Source: Naasia sp.
Lineage (GTDB): Bacteria; Actinomycetota; Actinomycetes; Actinomycetales; Microbacteriaceae
Assembly (NCBI RefSeq): GCF_025465545.1
Contig: NZ_JAODMK010000022.1
Location: 1 to 64,000, forward strand
Length of the DNA stretch: 64,000 nucleotides
Direction of reading: 5' to 3'
Shown piece by piece: positions 1,062 to 52,591 of the stretch. The position numbers and the translations under genes are program-made. Positions within the stretch are counted from its first letter, which is position 1. The number at the start of each line of letters is the position of its first letter. A model generated the notes under the pieces. That model made no database searches, had not been told where the DNA came from, and worked only from the letters and a program-made list of their open reading frames with translations.

Positions 1062-2081
1062 ATGGACCCCAGGGACGCGCTGCACGAGATCGCCTTCCGG
1101 CTGGAGCGCGAGCGCGCGCCCCAGTTCAAGGTGCAGGCATTCCGCAAGGCGGCGGGCATCATCGCCCCGCTCGGGGTGCAGGAGGTCGTCGCCCGGGCTC
1201 GGGACGGGCGCCTGAAGAGCATGAAGGGCATCGGCGGCAGGACCTTCGAGGTGATCCGGCAGGCCGTCGACGGTGCGGTGCCCGACTACCTCGAGGACCT
1301 CCGCCGGCGCGGGCAGGAGCCGCTCGCCGAGGGCGGCGCCGAGCTGCGAGCCGCGCTCCGGGGAGACCTGCACGCGCACAGCGAATGGTCGGACGGGACG
1401 ACGCCGATCGAGCAGATGGCGGACGCCGCCCGCATGCTCGGCCGCGAGTATCAGGCCCTCACGGACCACTCGCCCACTCTCACGATCGCCAAAGGGCTGA
1501 GCGCCGAGCGGCTCAGCGAGCAGCTGGAGCTGGTCGCCGCCCTCAACGATGGCTACGACGGCTTCCGCCTGCTCTCCGGCATCGAGGTCGACATCCTGGA
1601 GACGGGGGAGCTCGACCAGACGCCCGAGATGCTGGACCGGCTCGACATCGTGGTGGCGAGCGTGCACTCCAAGCTGCGCTCGCCGAAGGCGACGATGACC
1701 GAGCGGATGCTCGGCGGCGTCCGCGACCCGCACACGAACGTGCTCGGCCACTGCACCGGCCGCCTCGTCGAGGGCTCGCGGGGCACCCGGCCGCAGTCGG
1801 AGTTCGACGCGAAGGAGGTGTTCGCCGAGTGCGCAGCGCGGAATGTCGCGGTGGAGATCAACTCCCGGCCCGAGCGTCAGGACCCACCGGACGACCTGAT
1901 CCAGCTCGCGCTCGACGCCGGCTGCCTCTTCAGCATCGACACCGACGCGCACGCGCCCGGACAGCTCGACTTCCTCGCCTACGGGGCTGAGCGGGCTGCG
2001 AAGAACGGGGTTCCCGCCGAGCGGATCGTCACCACCTGGCCGCTCGACCGTCTCCTCGACTGGACCAACTCCCGCGACTAG
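1062..2081 (+). CDS. PHP domain-containing protein with PolX-like N-terminal helix-hairpin-helix
   Basis: 339 residues if the ATG at 1062 is used; a GTG at 1044 in frame would add six. The ATG is preferred because GGAAG lies about 8 nt upstream. Residues 1-90 resemble the 8-kDa and HhH part of X-family polymerases (MKGIGGRTFEVIRQA near 54). A PHP phosphoesterase domain follows, with metal-binding HAHSEWSDGTTP near 104, DHS near 140, EVD near 180 and DTDAHAPGQ near 295. The polymerase domain of PolX is absent. Family members are metal-dependent phosphoesterases, often annotated as histidinol-phosphatase-like. The actual substrate is unknown; DNA binding through the HhH is an inference. Confidence 0.82.
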   Translation: MDPRDALHEIAFRLERERAPQFKVQAFRKAAGIIAPLGVQEVVARARDGRLKSMKGIGGRTFEVIRQAVDGAVPDYLEDLRRRGQEPLAEGGAELRAALRGDLHAHSEWSDGTTPIEQMADAARMLGREYQALTDHSPTLTIAKGLSAERLSEQLELVAALNDGYDGFRLLSGIEVDILETGELDQTPEMLDRLDIVVASVHSKLRSPKATMTERMLGGVRDPHTNVLGHCTGRLVEGSRGTRPQSEFDAKEVFAECAARNVAVEINSRPERQDPPDDLIQLALDAGCLFSIDTDAHAPGQLDFLAYGAERAAKNGVPAERIVTTWPLDRLLDWTNSRD

Positions 2082-50222: not shown

Positions 50223-50327
50223 CGGGTCCCCCTCGCGCGCATCGTAGGACGAGACCGCGAGCCTAGGCGATGTCGGTGGCGACACCTAAACTGGGGGCAA
50301 CAAACGCCCCGCAACACAACATGTATG

Positions 50328-50359
50328 GAATGACACCCCTGTCATTCACGTTATATAGT
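50328..50359 (+). promoter_or_regulatory. Strong sigma-A promoter with overlapping palindromic operator
   Basis: TGACAC at 50331-50336 and TATAGT at 50354-50359 are spaced by 17 bp. The perfect inverted repeat GAATGACA-CCCC-TGTCATTC (50328-50347) covers the -35 element, a position typical for repressor binding. Confidence 0.65.
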
Positions 50360-50414
50360 GGAGATCCGCCGCGAGGTGGATCAGCAGATTTGCTCATCGA
50401 AGGGGAGATGACTC

Positions 50415-50498
50415 ATGGATTTCGACAACGACTCGGTCGGTGGCTACGCGGTTCCTATGGACCCGATGGACCTCCTGCAGTGCGAGAGCTGCCAGTAA
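50415..50498 (+). CDS. 27-residue peptide gene, unknown function
   Basis: ATG at 50415 with GGGGAG 7 nt upstream, 27 codons and TAA. The peptide begins MDFDNDSVGGYAVP and ends MDPMDLLQCESCQ; it is acidic, with a terminal CxxC and no signal sequence. It has its own strong promoter (50331-50359), a 5' leader hairpin (about 50363-50382) and a hairpin terminator (50518-50547), so it is a monocistronic unit, more elaborate than chance would give. It is divergent from the glycosyltransferase. It could be a peptide precursor, a small metal-binding protein or a regulator; I do not recognise it. Confidence 0.6.
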   Translation: MDFDNDSVGGYAVPMDPMDLLQCESCQ

Positions 50499-50517
50499 GC
50501 AGGCTGCCTCCGCAGAA

Positions 50518-50547
50518 GAGCCCCCGTGCGCCCGGCGCCGGGGGCTC
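50518..50547 (+). terminator. Hairpin terminator after the 27-residue peptide gene
   Basis: Arms 50518-50526 and 50539-50547 (GAGCCCCCG and its complement), with further pairing inside the loop, 20 bp after the stop. Confidence 0.75.
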
Positions 50548-50593: not shown

Positions 50594-51040
50594 GTGGCAG
50601 TGAACCCGGCGATCCAAGGACGCAGCTATCCGCAGACGCCCCCGTATCTGGTGGGCCGTGAGAAGGTCCGCGAGTTCGCCCGCGCCGTGCTCGCGACCGA
50701 CCGGGCGAGCCTCGACGTCGAGGCGGCACGCGCTGCCGGCTTCGCGGACCTGGTGGCCCCGCCGACGTTCGCCGTCGTCGTGCAGGAGCACAGCCTCACC
50801 CAGCTGCTCACGGACCCGGAGGCCGGCATCGACTTCACGCGCGTGGTGCACGGCGACCAGCGCTTCAGCTTCACCCGGCCGATCGTCGCCGGCGACGAGC
50901 TGACCGCCACGCTCACCGTGACGAGCGTCAAGTCGCTCGGCGGGCACTCCATGGTCACCGCATCGTCCGCGATCGTCGACTCGGCCGGGGCGCACGTCGT
51001 CACCGCCACCTCCACCCTCGTGGTGCGAGGCGACGAGTGA
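50594..51040 (+). CDS. (3R)-hydroxyacyl-ACP dehydratase subunit HadA-like (FAS1-like MaoC domain)
   Basis: 148 residues of the hot-dog fold, matching the family of mycobacterial HadA (UPF0336). PPYLVGREKVREFARAVLAT and LVAPPTFAVVVQEHSLTQLL and RVVHGDQRFSFTRPIVAGDE are typical. The subunit lacks the catalytic pair and binds substrate next to HadB, encoded immediately downstream with a 4-bp overlap. TAGACT (50582-50587) ends 6 nt before the GTG, so it is leaderless. Confidence 0.88.
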   Translation: MAVNPAIQGRSYPQTPPYLVGREKVREFARAVLATDRASLDVEAARAAGFADLVAPPTFAVVVQEHSLTQLLTDPEAGIDFTRVVHGDQRFSFTRPIVAGDELTATLTVTSVKSLGGHSMVTASSAIVDSAGAHVVTATSTLVVRGDE

Positions 51041-51456
51041 GCGCGCTCGAGGGCCTCGCCGTGGGCGACATCGTGGCGGAGCGCGAGATCGTGCTGACCC
51101 GCGACTCGCTCGTCCGCTACGCCGGTGCCTCCGGCGACTTCAACCCCATCCACTACCGCGACGACGCGGCCGCATCGGTGGGGCTTCCCGGCGTACTCGC
51201 CCACGGCATGCTGACGATGGGCGCGGCCGTGCAGCCCGTCGTCGATTGGGCGGGCGGAGCCGGGCGGGTGCGGGACTACCAGGTGCGCTTCACCCGGCCC
51301 GTTGTCGTGTCGCCCGAGGACGGCGCGCTGCTCGCGGTGTCGGCGAAGGTCGGCGCCATCGACCGGGAGGCGCGAACCGCGCGCATCGACCTGACGGTCC
51401 GGTTCGGGGGCGACACCGTCCTGGGCAAGGCCCAGGTCGTGGTCGCGCTCGACTGA
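51037..51456 (+). CDS. MaoC-family hydratase, HadB-like
   Basis: 139 residues. The hydratase-2 motif YAGASGDFNPIHYRDDAAAS carries the catalytic Asp and His; VLAHGMLTMG follows. It probably dehydrates 3-hydroxyacyl-ACP with the HadA-like subunit. GTG at 51037 overlaps the upstream stop by 4 bp; murB starts 1 bp after its stop. Confidence 0.9.
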   Translation: MSALEGLAVGDIVAEREIVLTRDSLVRYAGASGDFNPIHYRDDAAASVGLPGVLAHGMLTMGAAVQPVVDWAGGAGRVRDYQVRFTRPVVVSPEDGALLAVSAKVGAIDREARTARIDLTVRFGGDTVLGKAQVVVALD

Positions 51457-51457
51457 C

Positions 51458-52591
51458 ATGGTGGACCAGGACAGGGCCGGCTCTCCGCGGCAGTCGCTGG
51501 CGGCGCTGACCACCCTGAGAGTCGGGGGACCCGCGGCGCGAATCCTCGCGCCCGACACGACCGCCGAGCTCGTCGACGCCGCCCTCGGCATCTGGGGCGA
51601 GGTGGACGAGTGGATCGTCCTCGGCGGCGGATCGAACGTCGTCGTCGCCGATGAGGGCTTCGACGGCACCGTGCTGCGGACCGCCGTCCGGGGGATCGCG
51701 GAGGTGCCCGGTTCTGCGCCGGGACGGGTGCGCCTCCGGGTCGAGGCGGGGACGCCGTGGGACGACCTGGTCGCCTACACCGTCGAGCGCGGGCTCGCCG
51801 GCATCGAGGCGCTGTCGGGGATCCCCGGATCGACCGGCGCCGCGCCCATCCAGAACATCGGCGCCTACGGACAGGAGGTCGGGGCGACTCTCGTGGCCGT
51901 GGACTTCCTCGACTATCTCAGCGGCGCTCACGAGCGCCTCGCCGCAGGCGAGCTGGAGCTCGGCTACCGCACATCCGTGTTCAAGCGCGGCAGGCAGGGG
52001 ATCGTGACAGCGGCCGAGTTCGAACTCGTCGCGGGGGGCCTCGGCGCTCCCGTCGCGTACACCCAGCTGGCGCGCTCCCTCGAGGTGGCGATCGGCGATC
52101 GGGTGCCGGTGCTCGACGTGCGGGAGGCCGTGCTCGAGCTGCGGCGGAGCAAGGGCATGGTGCTCGACGAGGCGGACCCGGATTCGCGCAGCGCCGGCTC
52201 CTTCTTCACCAACCCCATCGTGAGCGAGCGATTCGCGCGGACGCTGCCGGATGCGGCTCCCCGCTGGCCGGTCCGGTCGGAGGACCCCGATCTCGTCCTG
52301 CCCCTCGGAGTCGACCTTCCCGCAGAGCTGCCCGAGCGCCTGCCCGGCGAGGCGCCCCAGGTGAAGCTCAGCGCAGCCTGGCTGATCGAGCACGCGGGAA
52401 TCACGCGGGGATTCGCCCTGCCGGGCTCGCGTGCCGGGATCTCCGGCAAGCACTCGCTGGCGATCGTCAACCGGGGAGGCGCGACGGCCGCCGAGGTGGT
52501 CGAGCTGGCGCGCTATGTGCAGGCGATGGTGCAGGGCGAGTTCGGGTTGCTGCTGCACCCGGAGCCCGTGCTCGTCGGCTTCAGCCTCTAG
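51458..52591 (+). CDS. murB: UDP-N-acetylenolpyruvoylglucosamine reductase
   Basis: 377 residues, type I MurB. FAD-binding TTLRVGGPAARILAPDTTAE, EWIVLGGGSNVVVADEGFDG, then GIEALSGIPGSTGAAPIQNIG, YRTSVFKRGRQGIVTAAEFE, the catalytic Ser in SAGSFFTNPIV and the end HSLAIVNRGGATAAEVVEL. It makes UDP-MurNAc for peptidoglycan. It shares an operon with hadAB; its 3' end overlaps the convergent response-regulator gene by 11 bp. Confidence 0.95.
   Translation: MVDQDRAGSPRQSLAALTTLRVGGPAARILAPDTTAELVDAALGIWGEVDEWIVLGGGSNVVVADEGFDGTVLRTAVRGIAEVPGSAPGRVRLRVEAGTPWDDLVAYTVERGLAGIEALSGIPGSTGAAPIQNIGAYGQEVGATLVAVDFLDYLSGAHERLAAGELELGYRTSVFKRGRQGIVTAAEFELVAGGLGAPVAYTQLARSLEVAIGDRVPVLDVREAVLELRRSKGMVLDEADPDSRSAGSFFTNPIVSERFARTLPDAAPRWPVRSEDPDLVLPLGVDLPAELPERLPGEAPQVKLSAAWLIEHAGITRGFALPGSRAGISGKHSLAIVNRGGATAAEVVELARYVQAMVQGEFGLLLHPEPVLVGFSL

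Follow-up and report, generated by a model that had tools for sequence, protein, structure and literature searches.

The window, i.e., the whole stretch of 64,000 nucleotides of Naasia sp. DNA that was analysed, contains on its forward strand a gene of only 27 codons located 5' of hadA-hadB-murB. In anticipation of the identification described below, we refer to it as the solo RNR tail peptide gene, where RNR denotes ribonucleotide reductase, the enzyme producing the building blocks of DNA. Its parts and neighbours are as follows, where boxes were scored against acaCwAtATaTwGtgt, which we take to be the NrdR box consensus.

50314..50329, + strand: NrdR-box-like site 1 (ACACAACATGTATGGA), starting 32 bp before the start of site 2 and matching the consensus at 11 of 16 positions
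50328..50347, no strand assigned: palindrome GAATGACA-CCCC-TGTCATTC, spanning the -35 element
50331..50359, + strand: promoter, TGACAC (50331-50336), 17 bp, TATAGT (50354-50359)
50346..50361, + strand: NrdR-box-like site 2 (TCACGTTATATAGTGG), overlapping the -10 element
50363..50382, + strand: 5' leader hairpin of 8 bp, with a sequence that varies among homologues
50400..50407, + strand: ribosome-binding site AAGGGGAG, preceding the ATG at 50415
50415..50498, + strand: solo RNR tail peptide gene, 27 aa (MDFDNDSVGGYAVPMDPMDLLQCESCQ), 27 codons plus TAA
50518..50547, + strand: terminator-like hairpin GAGCCCCCG...CGGGGGCTC with a weak T run
50594..51040, + strand: neighbouring hadA-like dehydratase (FAS1_DH_region; Pfam)
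51037..51456, + strand: hadB-like MaoC dehydratase, a neighbour in many loci (Pfam)
51458..52591, + strand: murB, a neighbour in many loci (Pfam)

The palindrome, promoter, leader hairpin, ribosome site and 27-codon ORF with its TAA had been described in an earlier note made from the letters alone, and all of them are present in the sequence at the positions listed. A terminator had likewise been named: a hairpin is indeed found at 50518-50547 and suggests a single-gene transcript, but its T run is weak and the terminator scan listed none. Scanning 5 kb for the promoter yielded one site versus 0.1 expected from shuffles, and the AT-rich patch described earlier is borne out by a GC content of 0.504 for 50300-50420 versus 0.712 for the window (second lowest of 3194 windows). 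At gathering thresholds, Rfam identifies four tRNAs and nothing else in the window. The four neighbours scanned with Pfam encode a glycosyltransferase, the two dehydratases (hadA-like and hadB-like) and MurB, and RiPP maturation or export genes are absent from these four. Since hadB and/or murB motifs are located downstream of the peptide gene in 35 of 55 loci, the genomic place of the solo gene is old, which contradicts its description as part of an accessory segment.

The conserved entity is the peptide and not the leader RNA. The search for relatives that had been proposed as a check matched 33 of 99 genomes (own genome included) at E<=1, 30 of these below 1e-5, and the proposed inspection of third positions revealed that, when 52 homologous genes are compared pairwise across their last 17 codons, 81% of the differences are at third codon positions. 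Across 41 aligned copies, residues P14, D16, P17, M18, L21, C23, C26 and Q27 are invariant and Y11, V13, D19, Q22 and S25 nearly so, while the length ranges from 22 to 35 aa among the aligned copies. A strong 3' hairpin is found in all 52 homologous genes, and a T run in 35 of the 52. As leader sequences vary and Rfam yields only tRNAs, a leader RNA was rejected as the conserved element; with the peptide conserved and the leader not, the case that the earlier note had reserved for an RNA gene (RNA conserved, peptide not) fails. Searches for a family gave no match in NCBIfam (3 peptides) or PHROGs (4 peptides) and, for the window's peptide, a single sub-threshold match in Pfam (DUF5816, E 0.068); the PDB returned no match to the peptide at E 10. 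Genome G049 contains six peptide matches, two of which are located at L039 (G049:C8:61000-74000) on opposite strands and 4 kb apart.

The peptide and the C-terminal tail of class I RNR alpha

The last ~17 residues of the peptide, YxVPVDPMDxLQC[DE]SCQ, match the redox-active C-terminal tail of the class I RNR alpha subunit. A cysteine pair at the very C-terminus of class I alpha re-reduces the active site (PMC9531940, PMC9669993), and CXXC is present in 1737 of 2022 class I sequences (PMC9531940). In genomes G086 and G068, which belong to another family, the same letters end a protein of ~1000 residues that starts with an ATP cone and is identified in G086 as the RNR alpha subunit by both Pfam and NCBIfam. 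Outside the window's family, the tail is fused to the alpha frame in 38 of 40 matches, that is, in 22 of 23 in the order sample (20, plus L030 and L031) and in 16 of 17 in the class sample; the remaining ones are L130 (E 7.9e-4) and L319, a short locus cut before the barrel, respectively. We consider it near certain that the peptide is a class I RNR alpha tail: it exhibits (i) the CxxC at the extreme C-terminus, with C23, C26 and Q27 invariant, and (ii) homology to the alpha-attached tails, whereas (iii) the covalent link to alpha is missing. The statement that no family is known for the peptide is thereby superseded.

The partner protein comprises an ATP cone and PF02867, with a PF00268 beta encoded beside it. 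In 22 of 22 tailless alphas, C227, C441, C456 and the YY pair, which we take to be equivalent to the E. coli residues, are invariant. For the one beta compared with the PDB (L051), the best matches are the chlamydial R2 structures 1syy and 4d8f, with Phe aligned to Phe at what is presumably the site of the radical Tyr in class Ia. Based on both the likeness of beta and this Phe, the predicted partner enzyme is a class Ic-like RNR.

The distribution of the two chains was compared in 299 genomes of the family at thresholds of E <= 1e-180 for alpha and E <= 0.1 for the peptide: 130 contain both, 7 the peptide only, none alpha only and 162 neither (totals: alpha in 130, peptide in 137), where the Fisher test on co-occurrence ignores relatedness and the profile was partly built from the same genomes. 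Five of the peptide-only genomes are fragmented assemblies (G159, G217, G294, G334 and G336). In G107 the match is weak (E 0.08), and in G186 it corresponds to a 16-residue, remnant-like frame (SCPVDSMDELNCDSCQ; L129, about 1498-1546, minus strand) ending DELNCDSCQ, which is possibly a relic after RNR replacement, the sole RNR alpha of that genome ending CVSCAL. As a control, seven of seven genomes without split-type alpha, i.e., G002, G003, G008, G009 and G010 (no peptide match) plus G107 and G186 (weak or remnant match), have one RNR alpha with its own end, CVSCML or CVSCAL. Among 30 split-type genomes, 28 have exactly one PF02867 protein, so that the tailless alpha is their sole class I/II RNR, and class III RNR is absent from all 28; G183 and G234 have two PF02867 proteins each.

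The earlier proposal that the peptide binds metal or is a ribosomally synthesised and modified product, with no relation to RNR, could draw on the CxxC, the small size and the acidic body. It is contradicted by the sequence identity to RNR tails and by the co-occurrence with alpha and, as far as a modified peptide precursor is concerned, by the lack of maturation genes among the four neighbours scanned, and we regard it as extremely unlikely. The thiol-linked role that had been offered alongside it is most likely correct.

Tailless alphas and detached tails

In the genome of the window, alpha ends ...RRGFGFGGASSKADS and contains no cysteine in its last 100 residues. A second copy of the tail, a 35-residue ORF whose ATG overlaps the alpha stop (ATGA), comes next and is followed by the beta gene. 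The alpha end is complete in 78 of the 80 loci compared, which are the best 80 among 423 relatives, and is cut off in the other two; behind the TTYYL motif, cysteine is absent from the alpha end in 78 of the 78, and in 76 of the 78 a separate tail ORF ends 62-173 nt past the alpha stop. An earlier set overlapping these 80 loci had likewise been split with adjacent tail in 30 of 30 cases. In the alpha tree (34 sequences, 8 of the 42 requested having been dropped with fewer than 300 residues read), the 23 split alphas are all on one side of one branch with support 100/98, the root being a midpoint only. These data can be explained by a single fission event located in the linker that follows the barrel.

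Relative to alpha, the 76 tail ORFs from the best 80 of 423 relatives are distributed 65/7/4 over the three frames. The 65 ORFs in one and the same frame, as well as the ATGA overlap in the window's genome, favour the idea that the tail ends up joined to alpha, whether through a frameshift, readthrough of the stop or ligation, with no free peptide acting in trans. The other 11 of the 76, however, use two other frames, solo copies carry their own ribosome-binding site and 3' hairpin, viral records hold copies without alpha, and the only copy of genome G023 is located about 33 kb from alpha; we thus consider such joining very unlikely.

Solo copies are retained where the adjacent one is missing. 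The two alphas without adjacent tail among the 78, those of Naasia lichenicola (G001; L144) and G183 (L204), both occur together with a solo peptide, G183 having a second RNR. In G023, a genome of 927,303 bp that we presume is probably Tropheryma whipplei, alpha ends ...NRRGFAGFSKNKDV and no tail is found between alpha and beta; its one peptide gene is flanked by ORFs that, judged by eye, are hadB-like and murB-like, and the genome encodes one PF02867 protein. Given that all three lack the adjacent tail and possess a solo copy, the latter can serve alone. T. whipplei is listed as having a class Ic RNR in PMC4009431. N. lichenicola also encodes an NrdH-like redoxin domain that ends in the RNR tail, APVDPEDGLDCDSCQ (L048:4337-4822, + strand). 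This domain matches TIGR02194 (NrdH) with E 2.7e-7, below the curated cut-off, has no Pfam match at 0.01 and, by eye, has lost the first cysteine of its own active-site CxxC. As one case of an NrdH-like protein fused to the tail, it provides a hint in support of the RNR redox link. NrdH was also considered as the usual reductant and rejected: weak matches were obtained in 3 of 16 genomes, none above the cut-off.

Promoters and mobile copies

One promoter consensus, CACtAcAT.TaG.GgAATGACA....TGT.ATTcccGtTATATAGTG, anchored on ATATAGT, is common to 52 of 55 solo loci and, along with the conservation of the peptide, upholds the earlier description of a small protein gene with regulatory signals. 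The NrdR box-pair score is at least 21 in 54 of 55 loci versus a shuffled maximum of 20 (one shuffle per locus), where the 55 include an nrd-linked copy (L028). The linker between the NrdR-like boxes is 16 bp in the window and 17 bp in 37 of the 52 solo promoters (best-box spacing 33). For nrdA promoters, a box pair 32-33 bp apart was found in 22 of 30 loci (counted without shuffle control), and a TATAGTG box like site 2 of the window is present there as well. An NrdR gene is encoded in the genome. PMC12176259 describes two 16-bp NrdR boxes upstream of RNR operons, with 15- and 16-bp linkers. With its NrdR-like sites, the solo gene carries the box pair of a putative member of the NrdR regulon in the same manner as the nrd operon, and the expectation of repression until the product is needed fits predicted boxes on either side of the palindrome.

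The palindrome itself, AATGACA-N4-TGT[CG]ATT, is flanked by the NrdR-like box pair in the promoters of solo tail genes. In 52 homologous promoters, the left arm is AATGACA in 47 and the right arm TGTCATT in 29 and TGTGATT in 17, and the 7-bp arms are perfect in 26; by eye, it was not seen in the 22 nrdA promoters inspected. The occurrence at 50328-50347 is the sole one in its own genome with up to two mismatches allowed. With a single site there is no regulon to read, and a palindrome regulon was rejected.

Of the 130 alpha-positive genomes, 118 contain at least two peptide matches, and the palindrome is present in solo promoters and not in the nrdA promoters inspected. This could indicate that the nrd-linked copy is catalytic while the solo peptide regulates RNR, for example as a competitor, a redox sensor or an inhibitor produced when dNTPs have to be kept low. 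Yet the core residues of solo copies are those of the nrd-linked copies, G023, G001 and (with its second RNR) G183 keep a solo copy in the absence of an alpha-adjacent tail, and NrdR-type repression would turn an inhibitor off just when it is needed. A regulatory solo peptide appears very unlikely to us.

Copies of the peptide are also found on mobile elements. By tblastn, six phage records representing four distinct phages were identified (Pontimonas phage phiPsal1, Clavibacter phages CN1A and CMP1, and Pseudanabaena phage Pan2), with weak E-values (0.01-1) and with every ORF ending CxxCQ. In phiPsal1 (L307 near 7001) and CMP1 (L308 near 6001), the unannotated tail ORF directly follows an annotated holin (hol in CMP1), an odd position for a nucleotide-metabolism gene. 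A further 19 records are plasmids of Clavibacter (15), Leifsonia (3) and Gryllotalpicola (1). One plasmid-encoded protein of 33 residues (WP_223361114.1; L310:5983-6084, + strand, NZ_CP065038.1) is named 'ribonucleotide-diphosphate reductase subunit beta'; the subunit is wrong, yet the name points at RNR.

IMG/VR contributed 244 confirmed stretches with the peptide, of which the best 80 were kept. The alpha motif was found in none of these 80 loci and PF02867 in none of 40 viral records (36 from IMG/VR, 4 isolates), many of which are fragments, so that a missing alpha is not proof of its absence. A beta ORF with the host-like motif EANHCMSFEYV accompanies the tail in 4 of the 80 loci, all on the + strand (L238:6001-7127, L281:2314-3448, L232:4895-6078 and L258:6001-8115; the records of L232, L238 and L258 lack PF02867), and three viral beta ORFs match PHROG 86, the RNR small subunit. 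When the record of L281 is added to the 40, five of the resulting 41 viral records contain PF00268, one of them only as a fragment at a contig end, which rules out that viral copies always occur without any RNR gene. In L238 and L281, beta follows the tail at a short distance, an arrangement that matches the host operon except for the missing alpha. Upstream of the viral copies (best 80 of 244), the NrdR box pair exhibits no enrichment over shuffles.

Proposed mechanism and relation to known systems

From the sequence evidence, we consider it very probable that the peptide is a dithiol shuttle which re-reduces the RNR active site in trans, this being the simplest reading. In an ancestor within the family, the alpha gene would have broken in the flexible linker behind the catalytic barrel, and the detached tail would have persisted in two places: in the nrd operon, where it forms a small ORF beside alpha, and in a solo gene such as that of the window, often upstream of hadA-hadB-murB. 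After each turnover, the peptide would dock on alpha via its conserved YxVPVDPMDxLQ, its CxxC dithiol would reduce the active-site disulfide, and thioredoxin or another redoxin would recharge it. NrdR may lower the supply of alpha, beta and tail together at plentiful dATP. Phage copies come with neither NrdR boxes nor a phage-encoded alpha; during infection they probably provide tail to the host RNR, to which some phages probably also contribute beta. A difficulty for catalysis in trans is that a free peptide of 27 aa must get to a buried active site; the structure model obtained for alpha was poor (mean pLDDT 48.5, shallow alignment), and nothing was inferred from it. Direct reduction of alpha by a small thiol could be an alternative in principle.

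It is tempting to speculate further, albeit tentatively and at somewhat less than even chances, that tail supply is a control point, with an NrdR-controlled free dithiol peptide partly setting dNTP synthesis in cells whose sole RNR is tailless and with phages and plasmids exploiting this by means of an NrdR-blind copy. If so, a tiny NrdR-blind copy, in some phages together with beta, would raise dNTP output without the need to bring the large alpha. In our judgement, the phage-borne tail is an unusually small candidate auxiliary metabolic gene. Many members of one family, including Clavibacter and probably Tropheryma whipplei, appear to run their RNR with the cysteine pair on a micropeptide. 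A separate tail explains an RNR alpha that looks incomplete, and the role of the RNR tail becomes testable by simple mixing.

The closest precedent is the class II RNR NrdJa/NrdJb of P. aeruginosa, for which PMC4520616 reports NrdJb to be required in vivo and to mediate disulfide exchange. There, as proposed here, redox-active C-terminal cysteines on a second polypeptide serve the catalytic chain, and this precedent indicates that a tail on another chain can re-reduce the active site (PMC4520616). NrdJa/NrdJb is, however, a B12-dependent class II enzyme with an NrdJb of 229 residues and with both genes in one operon (PMC4520616), whereas the present system is class I, with an ATP cone and PF02867 in alpha, a PF00268 beta beside it, a tail chain of 22-35 residues, a second, unlinked gene and phage copies; it thus does not belong to the NrdJa/NrdJb type of split RNR. 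In ordinary class I enzymes the tail is covalently part of alpha, whereas here the chain is broken. Among solved beta subunits, those of the Chlamydia trachomatis class Ic RNR (PDB 1syy, 4d8f) are the closest. In Facklamia ignava, according to PMC6187632, the RNR reductant was rearranged by fusion of a glutaredoxin to NrdB; there a reductase domain joins beta, unlike the present case of alpha losing its tail. Split phage RNR genes, as described in PMC3653736, are coding sequences broken in two, several of them by introns, inteins or homing genes, unlike the present viral records, which carry the tail, some also beta, with alpha not found. In the literature searched (leading matches, with few subscription papers and no bioRxiv preprints), no description of a separate class I RNR tail was encountered. 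Split RNRs as such are known; what is new relative to the literature searched is how small the detached part is, that a second gene encodes it and that it travels in phages.
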